A stretch of 50,455 nucleotides of DNA from a virus (IMGVR_UViG_3300046804_001087:1-50455); one strand, 5' to 3'; counted from the stretch's first letter, positions 773 to 35,862 are shown. A program made the numbers and translations. The notes: a model not told the origin generated them from the letters alone.

Positions 773-1674
773 TGACTAAAAATCTAATCACTTTTAGTGG
801 CGGAGCAGATTCTGCGTTATTAGTTCACAAGCTAATAACAGAAACGAGTGATGAAAATACTTTGCTCGTTCTCTGCAACGAAAATCTAAAGTGGTCTCTC
901 AACACTAAAAAGTTGCTTGCTATTCAGCCAGTTTTAGCTGAGTTAAAAACATATGGAAATTTTGAAGTAATATATCACAATGTAGAAGTCGATCAAATCA
1001 ATTCGATGATGGACGATATGTGGTATGCGTATGCCATCAAGAAGTTCGCTTCAAAACTAAATGATGGTACATATGATAGATTGGTTTCTGCTGTAGGGTT
1101 TGAACAGAATAACGGCAAGTTCATGAAGAATCACGAACAGCGCGGCGTTAGACCTACGTTTGAAGCGAAGCATTTGTTTGATGCAGCTGTTACTAAAGGA
1201 CAATTTTGGCAACCTTTTGTAACAAACGACTTCTTTAATAATTACAACAGATGGCATCTATATAAGAATCTTCCAGAATCTTTAATGAACAAATCTATGT
1301 CTTGCATGACATATTCTAATCCCGCATGCGGACTTTGTGGAAAGTGTTTGTACAATCAAAAGGTGATTGAGTGCATTGCTGATGGATGGACTGCTTCAGA
1401 TCTACAGGAATGGACTGAAGAACGTTCAAGATACTACGGTGGCTCTAATAGAGATGCACCGATCATCTACTGGATTCATGCTGAGACTGGAGTCGGGGCA
1501 AGATTCAAGTGTGGAATATCCAAAGACGAGCGCAAAGGCGATTCTGTTTTTGTAAAGGACAAAATTACATTCGACGAGTGGTATGATACTATCGAATATA
1601 CTGTTCCCACGGATAACGGATTAAGTAATTGGAATCTGAGCAAATCTGATTGGTTGCCTCCAACGCAATCTTAA
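772..1674 (+). CDS. PP-loop ATPase, QueC-like (7-cyano-7-deazaguanine synthase family)
   Basis: 300 residues. A PP-loop SGGADS at residues 9-14 is the ATP-pyrophosphatase signature. Four cysteines, C178, C186, C189 and C192, have the CxxCxxC spacing of the QueC zinc site. QueC converts 7-carboxy-7-deazaguanine to preQ0, the precursor of queuosine and of the 7-deazaguanine DNA modifications that some phages use to evade restriction. The protein is about 70 residues longer than usual QueC, with the extra length after the zinc site. No FolE, QueD, QueE or DpdA-type gene is in this window, so preQ0 synthesis is not shown. Another PP-loop activity is possible. The end overlaps the convergent gene by 4 nt. 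Confidence 0.65.
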   Translation: MTKNLITFSGGADSALLVHKLITETSDENTLLVLCNENLKWSLNTKKLLAIQPVLAELKTYGNFEVIYHNVEVDQINSMMDDMWYAYAIKKFASKLNDGTYDRLVSAVGFEQNNGKFMKNHEQRGVRPTFEAKHLFDAAVTKGQFWQPFVTNDFFNNYNRWHLYKNLPESLMNKSMSCMTYSNPACGLCGKCLYNQKVIECIADGWTASDLQEWTEERSRYYGGSNRDAPIIYWIHAETGVGARFKCGISKDERKGDSVFVKDKITFDEWYDTIEYTVPTDNGLSNWNLSKSDWLPPTQS

Positions 1675-2600
1675 TTTATCAGTTTGTTTAGCAAGTCTTT
1701 ATCTACGTTCGACAGCTGATTCATTATATCCTGTGCTAGATTTGAATCAACTAAACTGACGTCGATACCTATCTTTTCTGCTTCCCTTACATATTCTGGA
1801 TCGTTGACAGCTTTAACAAAAGCTGATCTCAGTCTTTCTGCTTGTTCGGAAGGAACATCTGGAGGGGCTATGAACGGTCTGGTTAGAACGTTGGACAATT
1901 CTAAAACTGAAATAAGATAGCGACTATCTGCGTCTTTAGCCAGTTCCATAAGAGTGGGAACATTGTTCAACTCAGGATTTCTTTTTAATCCAGAACCATA
2001 TTGCAAAACGATTTGTCCTCTGATGTTGTTATACTTGTGTCCTGAAAAAGAATTGAAGAATGCGTCAACTTCATTGCGCTCGTATGAAAGTCTAATAGCT
2101 GGCTGATCTTTATATCCAGATATCTTGTTTAGTTTTAGATTTGTAGTTCTATTTACGAAATCAATTAAGCTAGATTCGCCGGAATTGTTATCACCAACTA
2201 TCAATCCTTCTTTGTATGGAATATTGGAAACTAAAACATTAACATCTCGTCTTCCATCAGCCGCAGATCCCAACCAAGTGAATTTCTTAGGATCGAACTG
2301 CGCGTTAGGTTCTCCAAGCATACTTCGTAGCGGAACTGTTCTAGGAACGGCTGCTATAGTTTTTCCGTCTTTTTCAGCTACGTTGTAAACATAGTTTGCA
2401 AGCGCAACACCGCCGGCTCCAGGAATCGTTCTCAACTCGACTTCAGTGATCTCAGGCATATACTTTTGCATATATCTGCCAACGATCCTAGCGTTTATTC
2501 CTGGTTGCGTAGCAGCATTCCAAGTCAGCACAGTAAGCGTCTTGGCTTCCGCAAAAGAAATTCCTGCGATAAAGACTGATGCTATAATTGATAATTTCAT
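1671..2600 (-). CDS. TctC/Bug-family periplasmic solute-binding protein
   Basis: 309 residues from the ATG at 2600, which overlaps the upstream stop (ATGA) and is followed directly by a signal peptide of about 20 residues ending FAEA. An in-frame start 24 nt further upstream is less likely. The mature protein looks like a tripartite tricarboxylate transporter receptor: an N-terminal IPGAGG segment, a central GDNNSGESS loop and a C-terminal APPDVPSEQAERLRSAF region. These proteins bind carboxylates in the periplasm and deliver them to TctAB. No transporter subunits are encoded here, so it would have to work with host permeases or act alone. It is a rare cargo for a phage, comparable in kind to phage-borne PstS. 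Confidence 0.85.
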   Translation of the reverse strand: MKLSIIASVFIAGISFAEAKTLTVLTWNAATQPGINARIVGRYMQKYMPEITEVELRTIPGAGGVALANYVYNVAEKDGKTIAAVPRTVPLRSMLGEPNAQFDPKKFTWLGSAADGRRDVNVLVSNIPYKEGLIVGDNNSGESSLIDFVNRTTNLKLNKISGYKDQPAIRLSYERNEVDAFFNSFSGHKYNNIRGQIVLQYGSGLKRNPELNNVPTLMELAKDADSRYLISVLELSNVLTRPFIAPPDVPSEQAERLRSAFVKAVNDPEYVREAEKIGIDVSLVDSNLAQDIMNQLSNVDKDLLNKLIN

Positions 2601-3214
2601 ATGAACTTTGGTCCGAGCACCCAAACAACAAGCGAACGTCTGGTACCTTTAATTATAGGTTTGACTCTGTGGATCATGAAAGAAGGGAAAAATATAGCTC
2701 TTCCTTTCGGAACGGGAACTGTTTCAGCATTTTCTTCCTTTCCTCTATTTATCTGAAATTCGCCTCCTTCAAAATCATCGTTCAACAACAAAGTCATTGA
2801 TAGTTTTCTTGGTTCAATATCGGCAGAATGACTAGTCGTAAATTCCATATCAGTATGCCAATCGTATCGTCCTTCTTCTTCAGAATTATATGTGGTGTAT
2901 TGAAACGTCTTATATCCGTTTAGATGAAATCCATAAAATTGATCGTTGATTGATTGAGTTATTGTGTTAATTCTATCAAAGATCCAAGCTGTGTCTGAGT
3001 TTCGTTCGTGGAATTTCACGTTTGAAACGCGATGCTTTTTAATGTCATTTTCATCATTTGAACCAAATGTGGTGCCGAGAACTGTACCTTGTGATTCACA
3101 GTAATCGATAACTTTTTGTAGTTCATCGTCTGTGAATGCGCCGTCCCAATATACCCAAGGATAGGTAATCTTAGTCCTCGTCCAAGGGTCATTGTAGATT
3201 GTGTTGTATTTCAT
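2597..3214 (-). CDS. 2-oxoglutarate/Fe(II)-dependent oxygenase (prolyl 4-hydroxylase-like)
   Basis: 205 residues. The double-stranded beta-helix signature is present: HTD at residues 120-122 gives His120 and Asp122 as iron ligands, His182 (SFMIHRV) is the distal His, and an Arg at 192 or 193 could bind 2-oxoglutarate. The LNDDFEGGEF segment is typical of this family. Such oxygenases are common in T4-like phages of aquatic bacteria, with unknown substrates. A GGAG ribosome-binding site lies 7 nt before the ATG. The gene leads a two-gene minus-strand unit whose second member, the TctC-like gene, starts in its stop codon. Confidence 0.88.
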   Translation of the reverse strand: MKYNTIYNDPWTRTKITYPWVYWDGAFTDDELQKVIDYCESQGTVLGTTFGSNDENDIKKHRVSNVKFHERNSDTAWIFDRINTITQSINDQFYGFHLNGYKTFQYTTYNSEEEGRYDWHTDMEFTTSHSADIEPRKLSMTLLLNDDFEGGEFQINRGKEENAETVPVPKGRAIFFPSFMIHRVKPIIKGTRRSLVVWVLGPKFI

Positions 3215-3237: not shown

Positions 3238-3267
3238 TGTATATAGCAGGACAATAAATAGTGTAAA
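3238..3267 (-). promoter_or_regulatory. Possible sigma70-like promoter for the minus-strand pair
   Basis: Read on the minus strand, TTTACA lies 16-18 bp before overlapping TATATA and TACAAT-like boxes, upstream of the oxygenase gene. The match is moderate, in an AT-rich gap between divergent genes. Confidence 0.3.
3253..3260 (+). promoter_or_regulatory. Possible late promoter (AATAAATA) for the curli-like cluster
   Basis: AATAAATA differs from the TATAAATA late box by one base and lies 22 nt before the first start of the cluster, with a GAAAGGA ribosome-binding site between them. It is the only promoter-like element seen directly ahead of the eight-gene run. Single-base variants occur easily in AT-rich gaps, so confidence is limited. 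Confidence 0.4.
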
Positions 3268-3282
3268 ACTGAAAGGACTGCT

Positions 3283-3561
3283 ATGGATTTCTTCAAACTC
3301 GTGGCTGAAGTGGGCTTTCCTATAGCATCAGCCTGCGCCGGCGGATATTTCGTATTCCTCACACTGAAGTTCATTTTAGCGGGTGTGATGAGTTCTGTAA
3401 AGGGTCTTTCTGGAATTATCATGGCTTTGGACAATCGTGTCAAGACCATGAACCACGACGTGATCCGTATTGATACGCTGGTCTCCAACGCACTGGGCAT
3501 AAAGCCAGATACGGATCGCATAGCACGAGCCGATGGCAAGAACGACGCAAGGAGAGACTGA
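3283..3561 (+). CDS. Small membrane protein, first of a paralogous pair
   Basis: 92 residues. An N-terminal hydrophobic segment, about residues 8-36 (GFPIASACAGGYFVFL and onward), is followed by a helical stretch with regular hydrophobic spacing (residues 45-70) and a charged tail. It resembles the next protein: both carry a GFPI-A-G-GY core in the membrane segment and a D-NDL/DV-R-like helix after it. The ATG follows GAAAGGA. The stop overlaps the next ATG by 1 nt (TGATG). It opens the curli-like cluster. It may be an inner-membrane partner of that system or a small holin-like protein. No known family is assigned. Confidence 0.75.
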   Translation: MDFFKLVAEVGFPIASACAGGYFVFLTLKFILAGVMSSVKGLSGIIMALDNRVKTMNHDVIRIDTLVSNALGIKPDTDRIARADGKNDARRD

Positions 3562-3866
3562 TGGATCTTGTAGCCATGATCAACAAATATGGTTTCCCTA
3601 TCGTCGCCGCCGGCGGCATGGGATATCTCATCTTCTATGTATGGAAGTGGGCTACGCAAGAAATCAAGCCAGTTCTGTCGGAAGCTAATACAGTTCTTAT
3701 TGCGTTGATTGATCGTATTCGTATGCTTGATAATGACCTCATTCGTTTGAACCAAAAAGTGAACGTTGTGCTGACGCTCCGAGGACAGCAGATTGAGGAG
3801 ATGAAGGATGCGCATCTGCAAGGTAGTAGCAATACTGCTAACAGCGACGACAAGCCAAGCAAGTGA
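3561..3866 (+). CDS. Small membrane protein, second of a paralogous pair
   Basis: 101 residues. A single membrane segment at about residues 10-30 (GFPIVAAGGMGYLIFYVW) precedes an amphipathic helix (about 40-80) that could form a coiled coil, and a polar tail. The arrangement matches the preceding gene, so the pair probably arose by tandem duplication. The 3' end overlaps the csgF-like gene by 59 nt in another frame. One-segment proteins with a cytoplasmic coiled coil occur among phage holin-like proteins, but the genetic context favours a role with the secretion genes. Function is unknown. Confidence 0.75.
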   Translation: MDLVAMINKYGFPIVAAGGMGYLIFYVWKWATQEIKPVLSEANTVLIALIDRIRMLDNDLIRLNQKVNVVLTLRGQQIEEMKDAHLQGSSNTANSDDKPSK

Positions 3867-4251
3867 GCTGAATTTCAAGTTCAAGAGTCCTGCGTTTTCT
3901 GGTGAGGGATATTCTTCACACGTATTGACGATTGACAATCAAGAGCAGACAAGAAAGCAGAAGCTGATCGACGAGAAGAAAGCTGAAGCTGCGAAAGCTG
4001 CTGCTGATGCGAAGAATACAAACTTGGCTAGATTTCTGAACAATCTGGAAAGTCGTGTCTATGCTACTATTTCGCAAAAGATTGCTGAAGAATTGTTCAA
4101 GAGTGGTAGTTCTAACTCTGGCGGTTCTTTTGACGTTGCTGGCAATAACGTCCAGTGGTCTTCAGTAGGAAATGATATTACGCTTCGCATAACTGATTCT
4201 GCTGGTGCTGTGACTGAGATTGTTGTGCCGACAGGGAGTCTAGCGTGGTAA
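3808..4251 (+). CDS. csgF: CsgF-like curli assembly protein
   Basis: 147 residues. A signal peptide of about 18 residues ends in SQA. The mature N-terminus, ELNFKFKSPAFSG, matches the conserved CsgF start in which an aromatic-rich strand is followed by a P-x-F-G/SG motif. In known curli systems this N-terminal segment inserts into the CsgG channel and the rest couples secretion to fibre nucleation at the surface. Residues 48-100 form an Ala/Lys-rich helix and the C-terminus is beta-rich, as in CsgF. The start lies inside the previous gene, out of frame, preceded by GAGGAG about 7 nt away. Its last 7 nt overlap the csgG-like start. Confidence 0.85.
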   Translation: MRICKVVAILLTATTSQASELNFKFKSPAFSGEGYSSHVLTIDNQEQTRKQKLIDEKKAEAAKAAADAKNTNLARFLNNLESRVYATISQKIAEELFKSGSSNSGGSFDVAGNNVQWSSVGNDITLRITDSAGAVTEIVVPTGSLAW

Positions 4252-5060
4252 GATTGTTGCTTATAGCACTAGCTAGTTTGATGGTTGCTGCTTGTCAGCC
4301 GCCAAAGTCTAGACAACAAAAGCTAGAGCCTAAGATTGAAGAATCTGGTGCTGAGGTAATCACTAAGAAGCGCATCAACGAGCTTGCGTCTTTGCCTGCT
4401 CTTGATGGTCCTTCTATTCCGATTGCTGTATATAAGTTCAATGATATGACTGGGCAACGTAAGCCTGCACAAACATTTGCGAGTCTTAGTTCTGCTGTAA
4501 CGCAAGGCGCTGAAGTGTTTCTTATCAAAGCTCTTCAGGACGCTGGAAACGGAAACTGGTTCAAAGTTGTTGAGCGCGTTGGTCTCGAGAATCTTGTAAA
4601 AGAACGACAGATCATTCGCAGTCAACGTGAACTTTATGAAAAAGAGGAAGCGAAACCGCTGACGCCACTGATTGTAGCTGGCGTAATGATTGAAGGCGGT
4701 ATCGTTGGATATGATAGTAATATAGGAACTGGCGGTGTTGGTGCTCGCGTCTTAGGAATAGGAGCGAGTCAGGAATATCGCAAGGATGAAGTGACTGTTG
4801 TTCTCAGACTTGTGTCTGTCAACACAGGCGAAGTGTTATTATCTACGGGTGCATCAAAGACTATTCTGAGCACGAGCGCAGGAACGAATCTGTTCAAGTT
4901 CGTTGATATAGGAACAAAGTCTGTAGAGTTTGAAGCTGGAGCGACCGTGAATGAACCTACAACATACGCAGTGCGTGTAGCCACTGAAGCAGCGGTCGCA
5001 GATATGATAAAAGAGGGAGCTAAGAAAAAGCTCTGGAAGTTCAAAACAAAGGGGAAGTAA
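4245..5060 (+). CDS. csgG: CsgG-like curli secretion channel, outer-membrane lipoprotein
   Basis: 271 residues, starting at GTG. A lipoprotein signal ends in the lipobox VAAC with Cys17 as the lipidated residue. Several stretches line up with E. coli CsgG: ERVGLENLVKERQIIR (110-125), VAGVMIEGGIVGYDSN (144-159), GGVGARVLGIGA (163-174) and TGEVLLSTGASKTILS (194-209). CsgG forms a nonameric outer-membrane pore for unfolded curlin subunits. By eye, the constriction positions Tyr51, Asn55 and Phe56 of E. coli CsgG fall on Gln76, Ser80 and Leu81 here, so the pore neck would lack its aromatic residues. The gene overlaps the csgF-like gene by 7 nt and ends immediately before the curlin-like gene. Confidence 0.92.
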   Translation: MVRLLLIALASLMVAACQPPKSRQQKLEPKIEESGAEVITKKRINELASLPALDGPSIPIAVYKFNDMTGQRKPAQTFASLSSAVTQGAEVFLIKALQDAGNGNWFKVVERVGLENLVKERQIIRSQRELYEKEEAKPLTPLIVAGVMIEGGIVGYDSNIGTGGVGARVLGIGASQEYRKDEVTVVLRLVSVNTGEVLLSTGASKTILSTSAGTNLFKFVDIGTKSVEFEAGATVNEPTTYAVRVATEAAVADMIKEGAKKKLWKFKTKGK

Positions 5061-5744
5061 ATGCGCATAGCAAGACTGACAGCGTTTTTGTCATTCTTGA
5101 TTATGTCTCAATATGCAAACGCCGCGAGCAATAGTATTTACGTTGATCAAATTGGAAGTGGATCAACTATATCACTGACACAAACTGGTACGGGCAACGC
5201 GATTGGTAGCACTACAAAGGCTGCTACCATAAATGGTGATAATAATACAATTACAATTGAACAGATCGGAAACACGAACACAATGTCGCTTGACGTAGGC
5301 GGCACTGGTGCAACTGTGACTACAACTATAACAGGCAACAGCAACGTTGTTGATGTAGCTTGCGGCGCAGGATCTGGAACGTGCAGCACATCTACAATCA
5401 CTAACACAATAACTGGCGATAGCAATACGCTTACACAATCTAGCACGAATCTTATTGATTCTACTGTAACGATTGATTCGAATAACAATACCGTCAGCGT
5501 AACGAATACTTCTACAGCTATTCTTGGTGCAAAGACTGTTATTGATATTTCTGGCGGCGACTCGAACAACGTTGCTGTAACACAAGCTGGTGTTGCTTCA
5601 ACGAACGGACATGACGTTGGATTGACAATTGTAGGCGCGACTAATGTTGTAGATATCAAGCAAGGTGGAACAGTTGATAGCAAGGTCGTTTCTAACATCA
5701 CTGGTTCTGGTAATACTCTCACTATCAAGTCCAACCATCCTTAA
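5061..5744 (+). CDS. Curlin-repeat protein (CsgA-like amyloid subunit)
   Basis: 227 residues. A Sec signal peptide runs to about residue 22 (QYANAAS). The mature part is built of short Asn/Gly/Thr/Ser-rich repeats with the curlin pattern: I-x-x-x-Q-x-G-x-x-N, for example YVDQIGSGSTISLTQTG (27-43) and ITIEQIGNTN (64-73). Curlin repeats form the stacked beta strands of curli amyloid. It contains exactly two cysteines, C101 and C108. The start codon immediately follows the csgG-like stop, and the last 80 nt also encode the start of the fecR-like gene in another frame. It is likely the main cargo of the CsgG-like channel. Confidence 0.85.
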   Translation: MRIARLTAFLSFLIMSQYANAASNSIYVDQIGSGSTISLTQTGTGNAIGSTTKAATINGDNNTITIEQIGNTNTMSLDVGGTGATVTTTITGNSNVVDVACGAGSGTCSTSTITNTITGDSNTLTQSSTNLIDSTVTIDSNNNTVSVTNTSTAILGAKTVIDISGGDSNNVAVTQAGVASTNGHDVGLTIVGATNVVDIKQGGTVDSKVVSNITGSGNTLTIKSNHP

Positions 5745-6780
5745 GGCGGATGTTGGAAAGGTAACGGAGCAAACAGGACCAACTGAAATAAAACGCAGCG
5801 CACAGATGATTCCCAGCGCACTATCGCTGGGAATCGAGATGAATGATATTATCACAACAGCTAACGCCAAAGCTGGTATCACGTTCAAAGATGAAACTCG
5901 TGTGCAAATCACGGAGCACTCCAAACTCGTGATAGACAACTTCGTTTATGACGGTGAGAAGAAAACTGGCAAGCTCGGTATCAAGATGGCGCTTGGTACT
6001 ATCAAATATGCTTCCGGTCAAATAGCAAAGAGCGATCCACAACAAGTCGTCGTAACAACGCCAACCGCAACGATTGGTGTTCGTGGCACAGATTTTTCTA
6101 GCACAGTCGATGAGATAGGAAGATCAACGATTGTTCTTCTTCCGTCTTGTCCCACGGGTTGGAAGAATCTTGAGCGCGATTGTGTCGTAGGTGCAATCAG
6201 CGTAACAACTGATATGGGAACAATAATCCTCACGCGCGCATTCGAGTCTGTATCTGTGCAATCGAGCATGACGCAACCTAGATCAGCGCTGTTGAATCTG
6301 TCGATGGATCAAATCAACAACATGCTTATCGTCACTCCGCCTAAACGCATCGCAGAATCTGCGGGACCTGTTGTGCGACAGAAAGACGCGCTCGATGAAG
6401 ATCTCCTGGGAAAAGATTTCTTGAAGTACGATGAGCTCAAGAAAAACTATCTTGAGGAAGATAACAACAAACTAAAGAAAAATTATCTAGACACAGATTA
6501 TCTTGTTGACTTTATTCTTATAGCCAATACGCAAATCATGGGAAATGAGCTCGACGAGTTCTCGCAATTGTTGCCTAAATATGATCCGAGGACAGGACTC
6601 AAGTTCGCAATAGAAAATGATTTCCTGTATCTTAATCGTGAATCACTGAACGCATACGCTGAAATTAGAGTACCCACGACGGCTGCTGTTACGACAAGAT
6701 TCTCTCAAGATGGTGTTGATATCAAGCAAATGGTAAACAGCGCAGGAACAACAACTATTACGATAAAGCAAAGCCAATGA
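5665..6780 (+). CDS. FecR-domain secreted protein
   Basis: 371 residues from a GTG at 5665, inside the curlin gene. Only this upstream start yields a complete signal peptide (hydrophobic residues 9-27, ending ILKA), which supports the 80-nt overlap. A FecR domain spans about residues 30-200, with the family motif TPTATIGVRGTDF at 132-144. FecR domains act in the periplasm, often as partners of membrane sensors. Two cysteines only (C162, C173) could form a disulfide. The middle (240-300) is charged and helical. The last 30 residues, with QDGVDIKQ and TTTITIKQ, resemble curlin repeats. The stop overlaps the next ATG (ATGA). Confidence 0.85.
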   Translation: MEQLIARSFLTSLVLVILSLSSPTILKADVGKVTEQTGPTEIKRSAQMIPSALSLGIEMNDIITTANAKAGITFKDETRVQITEHSKLVIDNFVYDGEKKTGKLGIKMALGTIKYASGQIAKSDPQQVVVTTPTATIGVRGTDFSSTVDEIGRSTIVLLPSCPTGWKNLERDCVVGAISVTTDMGTIILTRAFESVSVQSSMTQPRSALLNLSMDQINNMLIVTPPKRIAESAGPVVRQKDALDEDLLGKDFLKYDELKKNYLEEDNNKLKKNYLDTDYLVDFILIANTQIMGNELDEFSQLLPKYDPRTGLKFAIENDFLYLNRESLNAYAEIRVPTTAAVTTRFSQDGVDIKQMVNSAGTTTITIKQSQ

Positions 6781-7052
6781 AAACATTTATCGCACTATTA
6801 CTCATGACAACTTCTGCGATCGCGCAGACCGTTCCCACAACGCAAAATAATGCGACTGTGAACATCACAGGAAACAATCAAAATGTTATCATTAATCAGT
6901 CTGGTGCTGGGCATAACGCTAATCTTAATCTTAATGGAAACGATATTCCTGTTAATGTCAGTCAGTCTGGGCTTACTCCGCAGACTTTTACTCTTACTCA
7001 TACCTGCAGCAGCGCTTGTGCTAGTAACCCTATTGTGGTTAATCAATACTGA
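6777..7052 (+). CDS. Short curlin-like secreted protein
   Basis: 91 residues. A signal peptide ends at TSAIA (residue 16). The mature 75 residues contain two or three curlin-type repeats, such as VIINQSGAGHN (37-47) and VNVSQSGLTPQ (59-69), then a cysteine pair C77 and C81 and a final VVNQY. By size and repeat content it could act like the minor curlin CsgB (nucleator) or as a chain terminator. This is inference, since CsgB is normally about 150 residues. It is coupled to both neighbours: ATGA with the fecR-like gene and a 1-nt overlap with the cyclase gene. Confidence 0.78.
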   Translation: MKTFIALLLMTTSAIAQTVPTTQNNATVNITGNNQNVIINQSGAGHNANLNLNGNDIPVNVSQSGLTPQTFTLTHTCSSACASNPIVVNQY

Positions 7053-9118
7053 TGATGGAAAAACTTGGTCAACTACTAACAAGTACACTAGCAGCTGCTA
7101 TCAGCGGTATTCTCCTGTTGATATTGTATGTCGTCAATCCAAGTCCGATTGAAATTCTGCAACTGAAAACATTTGACTATCTCATTACTTCGTTAGAACC
7201 TAAGAAGTCAGAGGAAGTAGTCTTTGTTGAGTTTGGCGAAAAGTCTGTACAAGAGTTTGGTCAGTGGCCTTTCGATCGTCGCGATATCGCTCTTACGATT
7301 GAACGACTCCGTCATGCTGGCGCAGGTCCGATCGTCATTCCTGTATTGTTTAGTGAGAAAGATCGCGCCGGTGGCGACGAAACTCTTGCTAAGTCCATTG
7401 GTAGCGGCGGTGTGGTTATATCGCAAACACCAACAACTCAGTCTCGACCACCAGACGCAGCTCGCAGAGGGTTTGCTGCTATCGGTGATGATCCTAAGCC
7501 ATGGATCTATACTTGGCCTGGGGCTGTTGCTCCTCTCGGACCTTTTGCAAACGCTTCCGAAGGCGTCGGACTACTCGCTTCACTTCCTGAGCGCGACGGT
7601 GTTGTTCGTCGCTTGCCTATGCTGGGTCGCATTGGGGATACACTGTATCCTTCACTTGTACTCGAAACGCTACGAGTTGCTGCTGGAGATCCTTCTTATC
7701 AAATTAAGTCCTCCGAAGCGGGCGTCGAGTTCGTCCGCATCCCTGCGTTCCCGCCAATCGCAACCGACGAAAGAGGGCGTATCTGGCTCACCTGGAACAA
7801 CGAATTTGAACGAGTTGAATCTACAGAGATTACAAAAGAAAAAGTAGAAGGGAAAGTTGTTGTTCTTGGACTAACAATCGAAGGTGTTGGTGGTATTATC
7901 GCAACGCCAATTGGCGAAAAGTGGGCTCATGAAATACAGGGACAAGCACTGCAGACTGTTATCGACGGATCTTCGATATCCAGATTAGCGTATGGTAGGA
8001 TATTAGAAATATCAGCACTGACGCTAATATTATTATTGCTACTTTTTCTGGTGCCGAGAACATCTGTTATGTGGACCGTTCCGCTTTACTTACTCGTTGT
8101 AGGCGGAGCTGCGGGGTTTGCATACTATATGTTCGTTTCCAGTATGCAGCTCTGGGACGTGAGTTATTTAGTTGTAGCCAGCACTTTTAGCTTTGGTCAT
8201 CTCACATACAACAATTTCGCACGCGAGAACAGACTGAAACTGCAAATCAAAAAGCAGTTTGGCACATATCTTTCACCAGCTCTCGTTGAGAAACTTCAGA
8301 AAAATCCTGAACTACTCAAACTCGGAGGAGAAACCCGTGAGCTGTCAATTATGTTTACGGATGTTCGTGGTTTTACTACTATTTCTGAGCACTATGGTGA
8401 TAATGTGCAAGGTCTTACGGAAATAATGAATCGCTACATGACAGCGATGACTGCGAAGATACTTGAGAACAACGGAACGCTCGACAAATACATTGGTGAC
8501 GCTCAGATGGCTTTTTGGAACGCACCGCTCGATGATAAAGATCACGCGAAACACGCTGTGAAAACTGGACTGGAGATGCTGAATGATCTCGACGCTTTCA
8601 ACGCTGCTATCGCAGTTGAAGGAATTCCTGCTTTTGGTATGGGCCTTGGCATCAATACTGGTAGTGTGGTCGTTGGCAATATGGGCTCTAGTCAACGTTT
8701 TGATTATACCTGCTTGGGGGACTCTGTCAACTTGGCTTCAAGATTAGAGGGACAATCTAAGCCGTATCATGTTCGTATCATTCTTGGTGAGCGCACCGCA
8801 GAGTTAGTGCAAGACGAATATCCTCTAGCAGAACTGGATTGCATTGCAGTCAAAGGTAAAACAAAAGGTGTGAAGATTTACACTATTGTTGATGGAAAAG
8901 GTATTAATCGATCGTATCTTAAAACGCACGAAGATTTCATAAGATATTATCGTAGTCAGGATTGGGAAGCAGCAAGATATCATATCAAATATTTAAAGAC
9001 TGCGTTCAATGGCGAACTGAGCGATTATTATGATATGATGCTAGAACGAATCGACGAGCTGCAGACTAATCCTCCTGGGGCTAATTGGGACGGAGTTTAT
9101 AGGGCTACATCTAAATAA
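7052..9118 (+). CDS. CHASE2-domain class III adenylate cyclase
   Basis: 688 residues with a second possible ATG at codon 2. Order: a membrane segment (11-28); an extracytoplasmic CHASE2 sensor (about 35-310) with the family features LKTFDYL and FDRRDIA; three membrane segments (about 318-385); a class III cyclase domain (about 428-612); and the C-terminal tail typical of these enzymes, ending NPPGANWDGV. Catalytic residues are intact: metal aspartates D437 and D483, Asn560 and Arg564 for the transition state, and Lys479 with Thr553, the pair usually linked to adenine rather than guanine. It should make cAMP from ATP in the cytoplasm in response to an envelope signal. CHASE2 cyclases are often neighbours of FecR proteins in bacteria, as here. 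Confidence 0.95.
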   Translation: MMEKLGQLLTSTLAAAISGILLLILYVVNPSPIEILQLKTFDYLITSLEPKKSEEVVFVEFGEKSVQEFGQWPFDRRDIALTIERLRHAGAGPIVIPVLFSEKDRAGGDETLAKSIGSGGVVISQTPTTQSRPPDAARRGFAAIGDDPKPWIYTWPGAVAPLGPFANASEGVGLLASLPERDGVVRRLPMLGRIGDTLYPSLVLETLRVAAGDPSYQIKSSEAGVEFVRIPAFPPIATDERGRIWLTWNNEFERVESTEITKEKVEGKVVVLGLTIEGVGGIIATPIGEKWAHEIQGQALQTVIDGSSISRLAYGRILEISALTLILLLLLFLVPRTSVMWTVPLYLLVVGGAAGFAYYMFVSSMQLWDVSYLVVASTFSFGHLTYNNFARENRLKLQIKKQFGTYLSPALVEKLQKNPELLKLGGETRELSIMFTDVRGFTTISEHYGDNVQGLTEIMNRYMTAMTAKILENNGTLDKYIGDAQMAFWNAPLDDKDHAKHAVKTGLEMLNDLDAFNAAIAVEGIPAFGMGLGINTGSVVVGNMGSSQRFDYTCLGDSVNLASRLEGQSKPYHVRIILGERTAELVQDEYPLAELDCIAVKGKTKGVKIYTIVDGKGINRSYLKTHEDFIRYYRSQDWEAARYHIKYLKTAFNGELSDYYDMMLERIDELQTNPPGANWDGVYRATSK

Positions 9119-9126
9119 TATAAATA
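9119..9126 (+). promoter_or_regulatory. T4-type late promoter upstream of gene 13
   Basis: An exact TATAAATA, the T4 late-promoter box recognised by gp55-loaded RNA polymerase, lies 27 nt before the gene 13 start in the gap after the cyclase gene. Confidence 0.8.
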
Positions 9127-18132: not shown

Positions 18133-19065
18133 ATGGAAGAACTAGAACACGCCAAACTTCTATCTATTGCGGCTAAGTTCGCCAAGTCTGAAGCTGAAGA
18201 AGTTCGGAACGATGTTCTACGCGAATTCCATGAATATTTTTCTAGTCCTAGCTACGAACTAGAAAAAGCAAAACTCCTTTCCATTGCATCCAAGTTCGCT
18301 AAGTCTGAGGCTTCTGTAGTTCGAGAAGAATTACAGAAGACCCTTAAAGATTTAGAAACACGCATAATATCCGAAACATTTATTCCCAATCCTGAAGATC
18401 TTGAAGGTATAAGCAAGATACGAACTGTTCGTGGCTTGCAAGGAGATCAAGGTCCACAAGGTGAACAAGGACCAAGAGGACTAACTGGCGCACGAGGCGA
18501 AAAGGGTGATCAGGGTCCGCAAGGAAATCCAGGAAGACCAGGCGTTCGTGGTGCTAAAGGACCCAAAGGTGATAAGGGTGACACAGGTCCTGCTGGTCCT
18601 GCTGGTAGAGACGGACGCGATGGTATTGATGGAAAGGACGGAGAACCTGGACCGAGAGGTTTAACAGGTGCAGCAGGATTACAAGGCCCTAAAGGCGATA
18701 AGGGTGATAAGGGCGACAAGGGTGATCCTGGCTCTGATGCAGATGTTGAACCAATCAAAAAAGAACTGGAACAGTTCAAAGATATTGTCGAGAAAAGAAT
18801 TTCTCGTCTCGCATTCACTATTGCTACGGGTGGAGGAGGAAGTTCTGCTGGATCTGGTGAAGTAAAACTCAACAGATTAGACGACGTTGATTATACGAGC
18901 GTTCAAGCAGCAGCGAATGGACAAGCACTGGTGTGGAATACCACTATAAATAAGTGGCAGGCTGGTAATGTTATTGCAACAGAATTTAGCTCAGAGGTTA
19001 TTGATTACGGAACAATAACTGGCGCAGTAGATATAGAAACGAGTAGGGATTACGGGACGCTGTAA
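18133..19065 (+). CDS. Collagen-like tail fibre protein with a duplicated N-terminal helix
   Basis: 310 residues. Two related helical units (about residues 4-33 and 39-68), both with a KLLSIA-KFAKSEA core, are followed by a charged linker. An uninterrupted Gly-X-Y collagen-like stretch covers about residues 101-202, followed by a helix and a Gly/Ser-rich, beta-rich C-terminus. Collagen stretches trimerise phage fibre shafts; the N-terminal repeats could attach to the virion. The gene starts 2 nt after gene 20, a position where T4 has gene 67, so it marks the left edge of an accessory fibre island. It abuts the next ATG by a 1-nt overlap. Confidence 0.82.
   Translation: MEELEHAKLLSIAAKFAKSEAEEVRNDVLREFHEYFSSPSYELEKAKLLSIASKFAKSEASVVREELQKTLKDLETRIISETFIPNPEDLEGISKIRTVRGLQGDQGPQGEQGPRGLTGARGEKGDQGPQGNPGRPGVRGAKGPKGDKGDTGPAGPAGRDGRDGIDGKDGEPGPRGLTGAAGLQGPKGDKGDKGDKGDPGSDADVEPIKKELEQFKDIVEKRISRLAFTIATGGGGSSAGSGEVKLNRLDDVDYTSVQAAANGQALVWNTTINKWQAGNVIATEFSSEVIDYGTITGAVDIETSRDYGTL
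18433..18738 (+). repeat. Collagen-type Gly-X-Y coding repeat
   Basis: About 34 consecutive Gly-X-Y triplets encoded by degenerate 9-nt units such as those for GDKGDKG. The region is rich in GGTGAT/AAGGGC-type words that could recombine with other collagen-like genes, for instance the one at the left window edge. Confidence 0.8.
18945..18952 (+). promoter_or_regulatory. TATAAATA box inside the collagen-like fibre gene
   Basis: An exact late-promoter octamer within coding sequence, 112 nt before the next start at 19065. It may be an internal late promoter for the following fibre genes. The same bases encode a TINKW motif common in fibre proteins, so coincidence is possible. Confidence 0.35.
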
Positions 19066-25000: not shown

Positions 25001-25270
25001 CTTTCCGACAAACGAGTCAAGAAAAACATCAAGACTTTTGATGATGCGCTAGAAACAGTTAATAATATGCGTGGCGTTAAGTTTAATTGGAAAGAAACTG
25101 ATACGCCGTCAATTGGTCTTATCGCTCAGGAAGTTGAGAAATTGCTTCCACAATTGGTTCATACAAGCGACAATGGTGAAAAGTCAATTAACTATGGCGG
25201 TGTTGTTGGTGTTCTAATTGAAGCAATCAAAGAATTAACTTCTAGAGTAGAAAAACTAGAAGGTAAGTAA
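22076..25270 (+). CDS. Large tail fibre protein with a C-terminal S74 intramolecular chaperone
   Basis: 1064 residues from the GTG at 22076, which lies 6 nt after AGGAG and gives the same MAS-TIKIKRSS start as its paralogue; an in-frame TTG 6 nt upstream touches the ribosome-binding site and is unlikely. Head domain, repeated GFSGILVGSNV units (about 205-280), then the LANTN repeats and globular block shared with the previous fibre gene. The last 90 residues are a peptidase S74 domain with the Ser977-Lys982 dyad in SDKRVKKN and the IGLIAQEVEKLLPQLV motif. S74 domains assist trimer folding and then cleave themselves off. Confidence 0.9.
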   Translation: MASTIKIKRSSVAGKVPLTTDLTTGEIAINTKDKKLYSSNGTAVFEIGSQLNNLTVSGNTTVAGVKANNSLGTSGQVLKTNGTTSYWGTDTAAVGTTNQILYRNSSNTLTGSSGLQYDGVSIKVNGNLESVYSNGNEGGEIFLNKPATGTTITNGVTIDVYQDRLRIFENGGTNRGAYIDISAAATGVGSNLLAGGGTSSNGFSGILVGSNVVVADSTSDRLTFVAGSGMTIAANPTTDTITFSSSGGAASNGFSGILVGSNVISADSSTDRLTFVAGSKISLAANPTTDTITIAAQTNEYLQVANAVATYQTKAVERAALANTNARITLVNQNLTGTNTALRTLISDRLQVANAVATYETKTTANARLANTNAYIATKVNTTTFNSALANTNSFIKSQLANTNAYIATRASWTALTSTNTALRTLINDRLQVANADAKFATKAYAAANSYVNNTFLKRTGSQASAQSVNTNVAFSANVSIQGKLTVTGGITSYFANNVSTSDNMIYLNANSIVSNPDLGFAGNYNDGTYAHAGFFRDASDAGTFKVFHKYTLEPDANVYINTAHASFELAPFAAQNIRAARNLVVVANSTLGNTSVSGFLKLNGTDIRTTFAQNTYVKSILANTNARINLLNTNLTGTNTALRILINQKLSQNDVVTTYQTIAVERAALANTNARINLINTNLTGTNTALRALISDRLQVANASTLYATKSNPTTSGFLNHTGRATISTNLIVSGNTSIVGLRANNSFGSAGQVLKTNGTSVYWSADVSGSSGGFANGQSISVLNLTVTGNTTLGGAGKTITSTGAITHTGRARISTNLYVAGNTVLGDPTNISERTTINGTLFANGNINLNGNTFIGAAGKIANATGWFGVNGRATVGTNLFVGGNTNIRGLIANGSLGTANFVLKTNGTTTFWGAAASGGGVTLADETASATTHYPTMSTTSTGSWTAGRVSTTKLYFTPSTGQLNATIFNSLSDKRVKKNIKTFDDALETVNNMRGVKFNWKETDTPSIGLIAQEVEKLLPQLVHTSDNGEKSINYGGVVGVLIEAIKELTSRVEKLEGK

Positions 25271-26448
25271 TGTCTGGTTTTGAAATTTTAGAAGAAGATT
25301 TTGATCGCGTCTTTATGACGGAACAGGAGATTATTGATCGATATGTGGGCAATAGACTTTGGTCGTGGGGTAATAATAGTGAAGGTAATTTAGGTGATGG
25401 AACATCAACATCGCGATCATCTCCAGGAACAACTGCTGGAGCAGGTGTAAATTGGCTTCAAGTTTCTGCTAATGGAAATTTAGGAATTAGATTTGCTGCA
25501 GGTGTAAAAACTGACGGCACATTATGGACATGGGGTGCTAATGTCGCAGGTAAGTTAGGTGATAGCACAACAACATCAAAATCTTCTCCAGTAACAACTT
25601 CTGGTGGCGGAACTAACTGGAGACAAGTTTCTTGTGGAACAACAAACACAGCAGCAGTTAAAACAGATGGAACTTTATGGACGTGGGGTGCTACGACAAG
25701 TGGTAGTTTAGGCGATAATTCGTCAACAGCTTCTCGTTCTTCTCCAGGCACAACTGCTGGTGGCGGTACCAACTGGAGACAAGTTTCGGCTGGTGGAAAT
25801 CTTATGGGCGCTATCAAAACAGATGGCACTCTATGGGTTTGGGGAGCTGGTGCGAACGGTGGTTTGGGTGACGGTACAACAACAAATAAATCTTCACCAG
25901 TAACAACTGCTGGCGGTGGTACTACTTGGAAACAAGTTGCAGCGACAGTTGGGCGTATGGTAGCCGTTAAAACAGACGGCACATTGTGGACGTGGGGAAG
26001 AAATACAAGAGGACAGTTGGGAGATGGCACAACAACTTCAAGATCATCGCCGGGCACAACTGCTGGCGGTGGTACAACTTGGAAACAAGTAAGTACGAAC
26101 GATGGTACCAATGACGGTCATACAGCTGCTATTAAAATAGATGGAACTCTCTGGACTTGGGGAGAAAATGTTTCTGGCGAACAAGGAACAGGCAACACTA
26201 CTTCAAGATCATCGCCAGGCACAACTGCTGGTGGTGGTACTAACTGGAAACAAGTTTCTTGTGGATATCGTACAACGGCGGCTGTTAAAATTGATGGAAC
26301 ACTATGGACTTGGGGTGCTGGTACAAACGGTGTAATGGGAGATAATACTATAACGCCAAGATCTTCTCCTGGCACTACAGTTTCTAATTCAAACGTGTGG
26401 AAATCTACGACAGCAGGTAATGTTTATACATTTGGTATAGCAGATTAA
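25270..26448 (+). CDS. RCC1-repeat protein A, putative adhesin
   Basis: 392 residues. A 30-residue acidic N-terminus (FEILEEDFDRVFMTEQEIIDRYV) precedes seven beta-propeller repeats of about 50 residues, each with [23 protein letters not shown] and [10 protein letters not shown]. The repeats belong to the RCC1 (regulator of chromosome condensation) superfamily by pattern. Seven blades would make a closed propeller. No signal peptide is present. The gene follows a fibre gene with a 1-nt overlap, so a virion tip or receptor-binding role is likely. It is the first of three paralogues in 4.8 kb. Confidence 0.85.
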   Translation: MSGFEILEEDFDRVFMTEQEIIDRYVGNRLWSWGNNSEGNLGDGTSTSRSSPGTTAGAGVNWLQVSANGNLGIRFAAGVKTDGTLWTWGANVAGKLGDSTTTSKSSPVTTSGGGTNWRQVSCGTTNTAAVKTDGTLWTWGATTSGSLGDNSSTASRSSPGTTAGGGTNWRQVSAGGNLMGAIKTDGTLWVWGAGANGGLGDGTTTNKSSPVTTAGGGTTWKQVAATVGRMVAVKTDGTLWTWGRNTRGQLGDGTTTSRSSPGTTAGGGTTWKQVSTNDGTNDGHTAAIKIDGTLWTWGENVSGEQGTGNTTSRSSPGTTAGGGTNWKQVSCGYRTTAAVKIDGTLWTWGAGTNGVMGDNTITPRSSPGTTVSNSNVWKSTTAGNVYTFGIAD

Positions 26449-26460
26449 AGAGGAATAGAA

Positions 26461-27093
26461 ATGACTGCATATGTTTTAGTTCACAATGGTTTTGTAATTA
26501 ATGGACCAAGGGAATGGAACTATCGTTCGTTTGAATCTTCTCTTGAAGAAGAATGCGAAATCGCATATAAACTCCCGATGAGCAAGAACGATGAAGAAAT
26601 AATTGAAATTGATGCGAATACGAAAATCTATGCTGCTGAATTAGTATATCCGAGCTATAATTCAAAGATCGAATATCCGCACGGTCCTTTCTGGGATTTT
26701 TCATCAGGCAAAGCTATTGGCACATTCCAAGTGTTGCCAACACCAATCGATCTCATCAAAAATACTTTGAAAGCAAGAGTTGCAGAAATTCGTTGGCGCA
26801 AAGAAATAGCTGGTATGATAACAAATGTGCAAGGAACGGATGTATTCGTCGATACATCTAGAGAAATGCGTGATGTGTTCGTACAAAAATACATTTTGAT
26901 AAATGATAACGAAACTGTTCAATGGAAATTCAAATCTGGTTGGTTTACTCTTACTAAGACGGAAATCAATTATATAGCTGTTGCAATAGCCAATCATATC
27001 CAAACTCAGTTTGATTGGGAAATTGCAAAGAATGCGGAAATTGATGCTTGCACAACAGCACAAGAATTAGACGCCATTAATCTTGAGGAATAA
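26461..27093 (+). CDS. DUF4376-type fibre-associated protein
   Basis: 210 residues. The C-terminal half (about 105-205) has the pattern RVAEIRWRKEIAGM, NVQGTDVFVDTSREMRDVF and WFTLTKTEINYIAVAIANHI found in DUF4376 proteins, which are typical partners or C-terminal domains of phage tail fibres. The N-terminal half resembles small fibre-tip or fibre-assembly proteins. It lies between RCC1 proteins A and B and has a clear AGAGGAA ribosome-binding site. It is probably a chaperone or accessory subunit for the adjacent adhesin. Confidence 0.75.
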   Translation: MTAYVLVHNGFVINGPREWNYRSFESSLEEECEIAYKLPMSKNDEEIIEIDANTKIYAAELVYPSYNSKIEYPHGPFWDFSSGKAIGTFQVLPTPIDLIKNTLKARVAEIRWRKEIAGMITNVQGTDVFVDTSREMRDVFVQKYILINDNETVQWKFKSGWFTLTKTEINYIAVAIANHIQTQFDWEIAKNAEIDACTTAQELDAINLEE

Positions 27094-27096
27094 TTA

Positions 27097-28332
27097 ATGC
27101 CTGTCTTTAATTTTACAGACAACGATGGCATTGATATTGGTAACAAATATGTTACCAAAGATTATCTTATGGATGTTTATCCTAACTTAGTTGCTGGTTA
27201 TGCAAGCCCCCAGCTTTGGACTTGGGGGTTGAACGACACTACTACATTAGGAAACGGCGGTCAAGGAATACTTGGAACAGGAGATGCAACGAATAGATCA
27301 TCTCCAGGCACCACTGCTGGTGGAACTGCGACTTGGGTGCAAGTGTCTGTAACTGCAACAAGCGCTGCAGCAATAAAATCAGACGGTACTCTTTGGACTT
27401 GGGGGCAAAATTCTCAAGGAAGATTAGGAAACGGTAACACTACTGACAGATCATCACCTGGAACCACTGCGGGCGGCGGCACAAATTGGAAACAAGTGGC
27501 TATTGGCGCTTCGACTGCAGCAGTAAAAACAGATGGTACATTATGGACATGGGGTTATGACGGATACGGATTATTGGGAACAAGTACTAATAATACCAGT
27601 CGTTCTTCTCCAGGCACAACAGCTGGTGGTGGAACTAATTGGAAACAAGTTTCAGCTGGTGGTACTGTATTTGCAGCAATAAAAACAGATGGAACTTTGT
27701 GGGCATGGGGCGCTAACGGTAATGGAAAAGTTGGTGATGGAACAACTACAACGAGATCATCTCCTGTAACTACTGCTGGTGGTGGCACTAACTGGAAATT
27801 TGTCAATATGAATTCTGGTTCTGGTTCTGTTGCAGCTATCAAAAACGATGGAACATTATGGACTTGGGGCGGTAACGGAGGCGGTCAGTTGGGAACTGGT
27901 AATACAACTGATCGTTCTTCTCCAGGCACAACAGCTGGTGGTGGTACTAACTGGACTCATGTAAATATAAATGACAGCGTTTGCACAGCAATAAAATCAG
28001 ATGGCACTCTCTGGACTTGGGGTTCTAATTTTCAAGGTTGTTTAGCTACAGGAAATATAACTGATCGTTCTTCTCCTGGAACAACAGTTGGTGGTGGAAC
28101 CGACTGGAAATATGTTACCACCTACGGCGAAGGAAATTCTACCCGCGCAGCGATAAAAACAGATGGCACGTTATGGGTTTGGGGTGTAGATGGTTTTGGA
28201 TCGTTAGGTACTGGTGCTCTCAATGATACGAAATCTTCACCAGTAACAGTCGCTGGTGGTGGAACAGGTTGGAAACAAGTCACAATGGGAACAAGATCTT
28301 CTGCAGCGATTGCAGAACAAGGTGGTTGGTAA
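27097..28332 (+). CDS. RCC1-repeat protein B, putative adhesin
   Basis: 411 residues. A distinct 40-residue N-terminus ([26 protein letters not shown]) is followed by RCC1-type repeats highly similar to those of protein A, including DGTLWTWG and GGGTNWKQV. The N-terminus shares only a loose D-x-x-x-V/M-T/K pattern with the other paralogues, as if different anchors carry one propeller type. The stop overlaps the next start (TAATG). It is likely a receptor-binding or virion surface protein. Confidence 0.85.
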
Positions 28333-28826
28333 TGGCATTTATTAAAACATTGACGATTGATGATTTCTATACGCCAGAAGGTGCGCATAACTTATCGTTG
28401 GTCGCTCGTGGTCTTCCTTTTGTGCAGAAAGATCTCGGTAAAGAAATCGAGAACTTCAATCACGTTCCTGATGATATGTCTGAAATTATTTCTAACACCA
28501 TCGCTCGCAAAGTAGAAGTTGATTTAGATCGTTCTGGCGTATTTCGTTTTCCTGAAGTATTCGTTCATTTCGAAGACTTTGAGTCAACCAAAGATTGGAT
28601 ACTTGTGGTCGCTTTAGATCATACATATTTCAATATATACGAGCACAAAGACGGCGCAAGAAATGCTTTAGAAGGATATGATTTTCCATATCTTGATTTG
28701 TTTCAGTGGAATTTAAAAGTAAATTATGAGTTGGAGCCTGGACAGGCAGTATTTTTTAGACCATGGCTATTTCATTCTTTCACAGGTAATCTAGTTCAAA
28801 TTTTTAGATTGAAAGATGTAGAATAA
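28332..28826 (+). CDS. Unknown protein between RCC1 genes (possible cupin or oxygenase fold)
   Basis: 164 residues from the ATG at 28332, coupled to the RCC1-B stop. An upstream in-frame start would sit inside RCC1-B and is unlikely. The C-terminal LEPGQAVFFRPWLFHSF segment resembles the distal-His strand of double-stranded beta-helix proteins, but no complete HxD...H set is evident, so an enzyme is not claimed. It replaces the DUF4376 gene found after RCC1-A, which suggests an adhesin-specific partner. The next ATG overlaps its stop by 1 nt. Confidence 0.7.
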   Translation: MAFIKTLTIDDFYTPEGAHNLSLVARGLPFVQKDLGKEIENFNHVPDDMSEIISNTIARKVEVDLDRSGVFRFPEVFVHFEDFESTKDWILVVALDHTYFNIYEHKDGARNALEGYDFPYLDLFQWNLKVNYELEPGQAVFFRPWLFHSFTGNLVQIFRLKDVE

Positions 28827-30055
28827 TGGCTGTCGGTTATAAGACAACATACAACGGACGAGTTATAGAAGTTGACGATCTCTTGGTCAAACGAGATGAT
28901 TTCAGCACCGGAACTCTTTGGGTTTGGGGCGAAGGAAGTTCTGGAAAATTAGGAACAGGTGCGTTAACCGACAGATCGTCTCCCGTAACAACCTCTGGTG
29001 GTAGTGTATATTGGAAAACTGCTCCTACAAATATTACGTATTTTGGTGTTGGTGCTATTAAGTCTGATGGAACTTTGTGGACATGGGGTGGAAATACTTA
29101 TGGTTCGCTTGGGAGCGGTTCTACACTTTCAAGATCATCGCCCGGAACAACAGCCGGCGGCGGAAATAACTGGAAACAGGTTTCTTTTGGTTTTCATCAC
29201 ACTGCGGGAATTAAAGCAGATGGTACTCTTTGGACTTGGGGAATTAATAATCTTGGGTCTGGAGGGCCACTGGGAACCGGAAACTTAACAGATAGATCAT
29301 CGCCCGGAACAACAGCTGGTGGCGGTACTAATTGGAAACAAGTTTCCTGTGGGTATTCTGTAACTGCGGCAGTGAAAACGGATGGCACTCTTTGGACTTG
29401 GGGAAGCGGAGCCGCTGGCGGACTGGGAACAGGAAGTTTAAGCGGTCGATCTTCACCAGGAACAACAGCGGGCGGCGGAACTAACTGGAAACAGGTAGCG
29501 GCTACAACGGCATTTACAACAGCGCCTCGTGATAACACAGTAGGTGCAGTCAAAACTGACGGGACGCTTTGGATGTGGGGAGCGGGATTAAACGGCGTTC
29601 TGGGGAATAGCAGCACATTAGATCGCTCGTCTCCGGTGACTGTTTCAGGTGGAGGCACCGACTGGAAGCAAATTGCAATTATGAATTATTCTGCGGCGGC
29701 TGTTAAAATTGATGGAACACTATGGACTTGGGGTTTAAATACGTATGGACAATTGGGTGATGGAACCACCACTAATCGTTCATCTCCTGGAACGACTGCT
29801 GGTGGTGGAACAAACTGGAAACAAGTTTCCTGTGGATATTCATATGCGGATGTGACAACTGAAACCATTCATATGGCGGCTGTAAAAACAGATAGCACTC
29901 TTTGGACTTGGGGAAGAGGGACTTTTGGTAGACTTGGCACCGGTGCTACTGCTGACAGATCATCGCCCGGAACAACCACTGGTGGAATATCAAACTGGAA
30001 AGAAGTCACGGCGGGCGCTGCAATAACTATTGGTATTACTGATCTGACTATATAA
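28826..30055 (+). CDS. RCC1-repeat protein C, putative adhesin
   Basis: 409 residues. A 33-residue N-terminus (YNGRVIEVDDLLVKRDDFSTG) contains a DDLLVKRDDF motif resembling short anchor segments in fibres of T4-like aquatic phages. It is followed by RCC1-type repeats. Several blocks are close to those of A and B at the nucleotide level, for instance the repeated [19 protein letters not shown] unit. It is the third paralogue and ends 27 nt before the sulfotransferase gene. Confidence 0.85.
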   Translation: MAVGYKTTYNGRVIEVDDLLVKRDDFSTGTLWVWGEGSSGKLGTGALTDRSSPVTTSGGSVYWKTAPTNITYFGVGAIKSDGTLWTWGGNTYGSLGSGSTLSRSSPGTTAGGGNNWKQVSFGFHHTAGIKADGTLWTWGINNLGSGGPLGTGNLTDRSSPGTTAGGGTNWKQVSCGYSVTAAVKTDGTLWTWGSGAAGGLGTGSLSGRSSPGTTAGGGTNWKQVAATTAFTTAPRDNTVGAVKTDGTLWMWGAGLNGVLGNSSTLDRSSPVTVSGGGTDWKQIAIMNYSAAAVKIDGTLWTWGLNTYGQLGDGTTTNRSSPGTTAGGGTNWKQVSCGYSYADVTTETIHMAAVKTDSTLWTWGRGTFGRLGTGATADRSSPGTTTGGISNWKEVTAGAAITIGITDLTI

Positions 30056-35509: not shown

Positions 35510-35862
35510 GACTGGCTATCTCCTTTTTCTACACGATAGCTGTCTTGCGGATCGTCGTGCGTTGATACTTCAAATACGATTGAGTCGTCTTCTAATGCTT
35601 CTAGCTGATGTGGCTCAAATACTTCGTTCGTCCATATATCTCCTTGTTTCAATACAGAAGAACATTTGTTTGCGTTGACTGTGTTGATATAATAAACGAT
35701 AAACGATCCTTGTTGCACATACCACGTTTCAGTTTTCTTACCATGAAAATGCATACTTCCTTTTGAACCAGCTTTGTCGAAACACAACAATTTACCACAA
35801 TACTTTTCATTGTTGACAAAAATGATTTCGCGCCCCCAACCTTTTTCTACGATCTGTTTCAC
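35506..35862 (-). CDS. Cupin-domain protein (mannose-6-phosphate isomerase-like)
   Basis: 118 residues. It starts KGWGREIIFVNNEKYCGKLL and continues with the cupin metal motif (H38, H40, E45 in SMHFHGKKTETWYV) and a distal EPHQLEAL His, as in the cupin domain of ManC-type mannose-6-phosphate isomerases. It may isomerise a phosphosugar for the operon. A classical GmhA sedoheptulose-7-phosphate isomerase is missing here, but this fold is unrelated to GmhA and replacement is speculative. It overlaps the hldE-like gene and the HAD gene by 4 nt each. Confidence 0.82.
   Translation of the reverse strand: MKQIVEKGWGREIIFVNNEKYCGKLLCFDKAGSKGSMHFHGKKTETWYVQQGSFIVYYINTVNANKCSSVLKQGDIWTNEVFEPHQLEALEDDSIVFEVSTHDDPQDSYRVEKGDSQS

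Follow-up and report, generated by a model that had tools for sequence, protein, structure and literature searches.

A curli, FecR and CHASE2 adenylate cyclase module in a T4-like phage: a further member of a known arrangement, with candidate links from fibre to membrane

Genes for curli export are known from aquatic phages. CsgF and CsgG were first reported in pelagimyophages, where sibling capture was proposed as their use (PMC7029224); a pinholin or secretin role has also been put forward, in a study that saw no clumping in Melnitz infections (PMC9004378); and in 2022 curli genes, FecR, an adenylate cyclase and a "histidine kinase" were described together from pelagiphages of the myo and podo types, as a module of alphaproteobacterial origin that is expressed in the ocean (PMC9599517). 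Here we analyse a related cluster in IMGVR_UViG_3300046804_001087, a viral DNA of 50,455 nucleotides that is referred to in its entirety as the window. Eight open reading frames (ORFs), all on the plus strand and each overlapping or abutting the next, fill positions 3283-9118 and encode two small membrane proteins (A and B), CsgF, CsgG, a curlin-repeat protein, a FecR-fold protein, a short curlin-like protein and a CHASE2 cyclase. This gene content, proposed in an initial annotation, is confirmed by ORFs, Pfam and PHROGs. The feature is real and has been published in kind, and the window copy is a further member of a known arrangement; since PMC9599517 already reports curli with FecR and an adenylate cyclase, the link between amyloid export and cyclic AMP (cAMP) around which that annotation was built is not new. 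We tentatively favour, somewhat short of an even chance, the reading that the eight genes constitute one late-expressed envelope module, comprising curlin export, a FecR tether or sensor, CHASE2-dependent cAMP production and a membrane partner.

The phage curli module and its predicted transcription

The pelagiphage type VIII secretion system module (PMC9599517) and the window share the order CsgF-CsgG-curlin-FecR-curlin-cyclase, the lack of CsgE and a cyclase that belongs to a single phage clade. They differ in front of csgF, where the published module has a histidine kinase, sometimes two, whereas the window, HTVC008M and Melnitz have the small membrane pair. The clusters of Melnitz (MZ577097) and HTVC008M (KC465899), both cultured phages, agree with the window in gene order and in the upstream position of the pair. 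Their main proteins are around 40-50% identical to those of the window, CsgG being 50% identical in both cases, but their second curlin is 338-441 aa long, with a C-terminus to which the 91-aa protein of the window can be aligned. Measured against bacterial curli (type VIII secretion), the window has CsgG, CsgF and repeats of the CsgA/CsgB type, the latter detected by Pfam in curlin-like protein 1 and only by alignment and a phage-curlin hidden Markov model (HMM) in protein 2, for which a Pfam search gave no significant match. CsgE (PF10627), noted as absent in the initial annotation, was found in none of 20 phage records (the window and 19 module-bearing records, including the complete HTVC008M and Melnitz); CsgC was not searched separately. 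A CsgG match was also seen in OR851715.1 (H16), a 1499-base record labelled Salmonella phage that is very short and possibly host DNA.

Three scans of viral contigs, with genes called by profile HMMs, yielded about 230 loci. The order CsgF-CsgG-curlin-FecR-(curlin)-cyclase is kept almost everywhere, across hundreds of phage contigs; CsgG and the cyclase occur together in 120 distinct phage loci, and the cyclase is missing from 1 of the 144 loci in which CsgG, FecR and 4.5 kb after FecR are present. The joint occurrence of CsgG, FecR and CHASE2 anticipated by the initial annotation is therefore borne out in phages.

The T4-type late promoter motif TATAAATA was sought within 80 bp upstream of each gene, with shuffled sequences as a control (about 1%). 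Among relatives, the motif precedes small A in 42% of cases when this is the first gene, CsgF in 45% when the small pair has moved away and CsgF comes first, and small A in 25% when it lies on the other strand. By comparison, it was found upstream of 0% of the small B, CsgG, curlin and FecR genes and 2% of the cyclases. This placement of TATAAATA at the first gene of each predicted transcription unit, and almost never at internal genes, is new in this analysis. Because the motifs precede unit starts and almost never internal genes, the module is probably a late unit with which the cyclase is co-transcribed. Separate transcription of the cyclase, which would have spoken against the "one envelope system" of the initial annotation, finds no support in these counts; the 120 shared loci, the near-constant presence of the cyclase and its lack of a promoter motif of its own all favour that proposal.

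The FecR protein and the CHASE2 cyclase

The FecR gene starts with a GTG at 5665, within the curlin gene; the two genes share 80 nt, and this overlap encodes the FecR signal peptide. An AlphaFold2 (AF2) model built on a 44-sequence alignment begins with a signal helix and a FecR fold (residues 31-210); a linker modelled with low confidence then leads to a C-terminal domain made up of six short strands (residues 312-369). This beta domain is separate in the model, with a predicted local distance difference test score (pLDDT) of ~90, and ends in the curlin-like ITIKQ. Gln369, in the last strand, is present in 44 of 44 aligned sequences and Gln348 in 43 of 44; the two are 21 residues apart, and the curlin period is 22-23. 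An end-strand motif is present in 90% of 131 phage FecR tails, compared with 0.5% of other ORFs, 3.6% of shuffles and ~40% of curlins, and the tails without it nearly all still end in a Gln-bearing strand, save one broken copy. The same motif was found in none of the FecR proteins encoded next to bacterial CHASE2 cyclases (0 of 32). New in this analysis is thus the indication that almost every phage FecR protein terminates in a curlin-like strand bearing an invariant Gln, which the bacterial CHASE2 neighbours lack. The proposal that the tail is a plain curlin repeat was dropped on weak HMM scores; as these scores are raised but weak, we call the tail curlin-like only.

In a Foldseek search the FecR domain falls together with signalling domains of the PupR type and also with 5ix9 (TMt 0.74, root-mean-square deviation 1.0, 62 columns), the anchoring domain of an adhesin that was deposited as "antifreeze protein" and that we take to be MpAFP. 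A sequence search of the PDB with the FecR profile gave no match. A retention domain in the periplasm keeps adhesins of this class at the surface (PMC6890996, PMC13090378). Given that the last repeats of CsgB in E. coli are required for outer-membrane association (PMC4551309), a curlin-like end strand on FecR is a plausible tether. The earlier suggestion that FecR senses or anchors the subunits gains support from this tail and from the kinship of the FecR domain with adhesin anchoring domains. The window cluster nevertheless differs from LapA/MpAFP adhesin retention modules, which its FecR domain resembles in fold: it has no recognised RTX adhesin, type I secretion, LapG or LapD genes, and its FecR protein ends in the curlin-like strand domain instead of being fused to an RTX adhesin.

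The window cyclase holds all six residues expected of a class III adenylate cyclase, namely the metal-binding Asp437 and Asp483, the adenine-binding Lys479 and Asp551, and the transition-state Asn560 and Arg564. Among 133 distinct phage cyclases, Asp437, Lys479 and Asp483 are invariant, and Arg564 is found in 132, Asn560 in 109 and Asp551 in 108. In the Melnitz cyclase (L003:7932-9983), Ser takes the place of both the canonical adenine Asp and the transition-state Asn, and activity in that subclade may therefore differ. The nearest solved cyclases include CyaB (3r5g, 6e-49). In a tree of 42 phage and 77 bacterial rows, the phage cyclases form a single clade with a support of 100, apart from the bacterial enzymes.

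The nearest bacterial CHASE2 cyclases are ~33-39% identical at the top and mostly from Alphaproteobacteria. A FecR-fold gene lies near the cyclase in 29 of 59 flanked bacterial loci; such pairs, in these alphaproteobacterial loci and in the BiofilmReg operon (PMC5192318), are like the window in that a FecR-fold protein adjoins a CHASE2 enzyme. Unlike in the window, the bacterial FecR partner is either an RTX/cadherin adhesin or a small protein; large FecR-domain proteins often lie near the cyclase (L237, L238, L248, L251, L267 and others), several of them cadherin/RTX adhesins, and the FecR part of the bacterial proteins matches 5ix9 by sequence (4.8e-6). CsgF, CsgG, curlin and the small pair were all absent from the fetched flanks of 80 bacterial CHASE2-cyclase loci, and neither FecR nor the cyclase was found within ~9 kb, or up to the contig end, of the fetched bacterial curli loci (6 alphaproteobacterial and 5 gamma/beta). 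In this small bacterial sample FecR thus occurs with CHASE2, curli genes occur with neither, and no complete ancestor cluster was found. As bacterial FecR neighbours include adhesins and their loci carry no curli genes, the partner of a FecR-CHASE2 pair would often be another exported adhesin in bacteria, and curli in phages. These pairings, taken with the constitutive cAMP production of S. meliloti CyaD1 once its CHASE2 domain is deleted (PMC5498481), suggest that CHASE2 may hold the cyclase back until an envelope signal comes.

The small membrane pair, its alternative and the genomic setting

Small A and small B are paralogs within one PHROG, phrog_18771. The A-type protein is encoded by 188 phage ORFs; A and B co-occur, with A followed by B in 178 of 188 loci. 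Where a distinct locus has at least 2.5 kb on both sides, the pair is present in 76 of 77 cases. On the module's own strand it lies upstream in 34 loci and downstream in 2; on the opposite strand it lies downstream in 39 and upstream in 1. Among annotated phages it is confined to six records, all of them module carriers. The pair has moved and yet been kept, which argues for a working link with the module; this linkage across four positions is also new here. We infer that these are the genes called histidine kinase in PMC9599517, although the window proteins and four orthologues gave no HisKA or HATPase match even at E 10 and have no Pfam domain, and an assignment as histidine kinases was rejected.

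A search of the 20 phage records for a cyclic nucleotide monophosphate (cNMP)-binding domain gave one match, in L076, which is also the sole flanked locus (of 77) without the small pair. The protein, 213 aa long, combines a cNMP-binding domain with a hydrophobic C-terminus and is encoded at 5730-6371 on the minus strand, divergent from csgF. Two scans placed this kind of membrane protein in six contigs, in four of which it lies beside the module csgF and the pair is absent. The Glu and Arg of its phosphate-binding loop are conserved, and no helix-turn-helix (HTH) domain was detected in the phage-encoded protein. The divergent arrangement without the pair is listed for L076, L327, L328, L331 and L332, and contig L330 is too short to judge. 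This apparent replacement of the pair by a putative cNMP-binding membrane protein divergent to csgF, in four contigs, is new here, and these few, related cases suggest that a phage membrane protein may read the cyclic nucleotide. The module resembles Pycsar in its class III cyclase and, in a few relatives, the cNMP-binding membrane protein, but has a CHASE2 sensor and curli partners and is phage-borne; a Pycsar effector search gave no match among the small pair. Membership in Pycsar was rejected, as PycC and the cNMP-binding domains of effectors are matched at domain level only.

The window comes from the genome of a T4-like (Kyanoviridae-type) phage: T4-like neck, terminase and sheath genes follow downstream of the module, and the terminase shares ~55-57% identity with its counterparts in cyanophages and Melnitz. 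Its GC content is 43%, against ~35% in the HTVC008M locus and 31-50% over all phage module loci; most of its closest kin are likewise GC-richer than the HTVC008M locus, and hosts beyond SAR11 are therefore likely.

Table 1. Genes of the module and late-promoter sites in the window.
Feature	Position	Strand	Evidence and remarks
AATAAATA, one mismatch from T4-type late promoter TATAAATA	3253..3260	+	30 bp before first ATG
Small membrane protein A, 92 aa	3283..3561	+	phrog_18771 5.7e-34; conserved C-terminus ...ADGKNDARRD
Small membrane protein B, 101 aa, paralog of A	3561..3866	+	phrog_18771 6.1e-33
CsgF-like outer-membrane chaperone, signal peptide	3808..4251	+	PF10614 3.7e-16; phrog_35372 8.6e-44
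CsgG lipoprotein pore	4245..5060	+	PF03783 2.5e-53; lipobox ...MVAAC
Curlin-repeat protein 1, signal peptide	5061..5744	+	Curlin_rpt PF07012 8e-6
FecR-fold periplasmic protein, signal peptide	5665..6780	+	PF04773 4.2e-12
Short curlin-like protein 2, 91 aa, signal peptide	6777..7052	+	alignment, curlin HMM; C-terminal Cys pair
CHASE2 class III adenylate cyclase, 688 aa	7052..9118	+	PF05226 1e-34; Guanylate_cyc PF00211 3.2e-20
Exact TATAAATA	9119..9126	+	opens next, structural unit (gp13-like neck gene, 9154)

Upstream, the module adjoins a 2-oxoglutarate-Fe(II) oxygenase gene (2597-3214, minus strand), and HTVC008M has a phytanoyl-CoA dioxygenase-like gene in the equivalent spot. Next to it, a TctC-like periplasmic solute-binding protein (1671-2597, minus strand) has a weak Pfam match and is far from the bacterial homologues searched, its best match being 28% identical among 150 genomes of one beta-type order. 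Elsewhere the window encodes a collagen-like repeat protein in the tail region (18133-19065), an RCC1-type repeat protein (25270-26448) to which the ORFs at 27097 and 28826 are similar by eye (region 25270-30055), a sulfotransferase (30083-30856), an HldE-like kinase/cytidylyltransferase (35859-37028, minus strand) and a DNA C5-methylase (48521-49660).

A possible mechanism and its alternatives

In the mechanism that we consider, CsgG and CsgF would form an outer-membrane pore for both curlin-like proteins without a CsgE gate, a step well supported by homology. From sequence and fold, FecR would be a periplasmic tether or sensor: its FecR domain, of the fold family of the RTX-adhesin surface-anchoring domain, would stay in the periplasm, while the linker and curlin-like strands grip the exiting or growing fibre. 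CHASE2, the periplasmic domain of the inner-membrane cyclase, could then sense the state of FecR and pass it on as cAMP, which would act on a membrane partner, the cNMP-binding membrane protein in a few phages and possibly the small pair in nearly all others. The most likely use of such a module would be a late change of the infected-cell surface, with this change, or the status of the envelope, coupled to the timing of lysis. A stricter version, an outside-in viral circuit in which FecR is a retention-plug tether at CsgG, CHASE2 reads fibre or envelope and a cAMP-gated membrane effector times lysis, seems unlikely to us.

Several observations weigh against this mechanism. The FecR tail scores weakly on curlin-repeat HMMs (median 2.8 bits, versus -0.5 for shuffles), only 11% of tails beat the 99th percentile of shuffles, and the tail motif was defined post hoc, from viewing three sequences. 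The window's own late-promoter-like site carries one mismatch, and the canonical Asp551 or Asn560 is missing from roughly one in five phage cyclases. Only 6 contigs have the cNMP-binding partner, whose exchange with the small pair was perhaps one event and whose family also occurs in L329 with no module nearby.

The presence of curlin-repeat proteins, CsgG and CsgF together would also be accounted for if infected cells simply made curli that clump neighbours ("sibling capture") or shield the cell from other phages, with FecR and the cyclase only regulating the amount, as the proposals in PMC7029224 and PMC9599517 would have it. We regard this as unlikely: clumping was looked for in Melnitz infections, by cytometry and TEM (transmission electron microscopy), and none was seen (PMC9004378), late promoters leave little time for protection against superinfection, and the small membrane pair and the cNMP-binding protein are left unexplained. 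Both clumping and superinfection exclusion had been offered as uses in the initial annotation; of the two, superinfection exclusion is the one that late promoters fit poorly. The missing CsgE gate, the late promoters and the conserved membrane pair would suit a repurposed pore, in which CsgG and CsgF serve as a gated secretin, or as a pinholin-like channel, to time lysis or take up large molecules, and the curlins are not fibres (PMC9004378); a bare pore, however, needs neither the curlin-type repeats nor the curlin-like FecR tail that have been retained, and we doubt this explanation to a similar degree.

CRP-type circuits are the usual outputs of class III cyclases, and the catalytic residues of the phage enzymes are conserved. 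The cAMP might accordingly act through a host CRP-type regulator on host metabolism, with the curli linked only by shared late regulation. This we judge improbable, given that the cyclase remains within the curli-FecR operon throughout the phage clade, and that the phage cNMP-binding protein, with its hydrophobic C-terminus, has no detected HTH and is encoded next to csgF. Each main part of the module has bacterial relatives, as expected if a single phage happened to retain a relic piece of bacterial DNA; the intact module in hundreds of contigs, the fully supported phage cyclase clade and the invariant residues make this origin exceedingly improbable.

The envelope module that we favour extends past the published papers, yet it is computational. 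The presence of curli genes in aquatic phages has been a stated puzzle since 2020, the question being what use an amyloid exporter is to a virus. The late promoters, the FecR tail, the small membrane pair and its cNMP-binding alternative would connect fibre, signal and membrane through concrete steps that can be tested, and point to the genes worth testing first.

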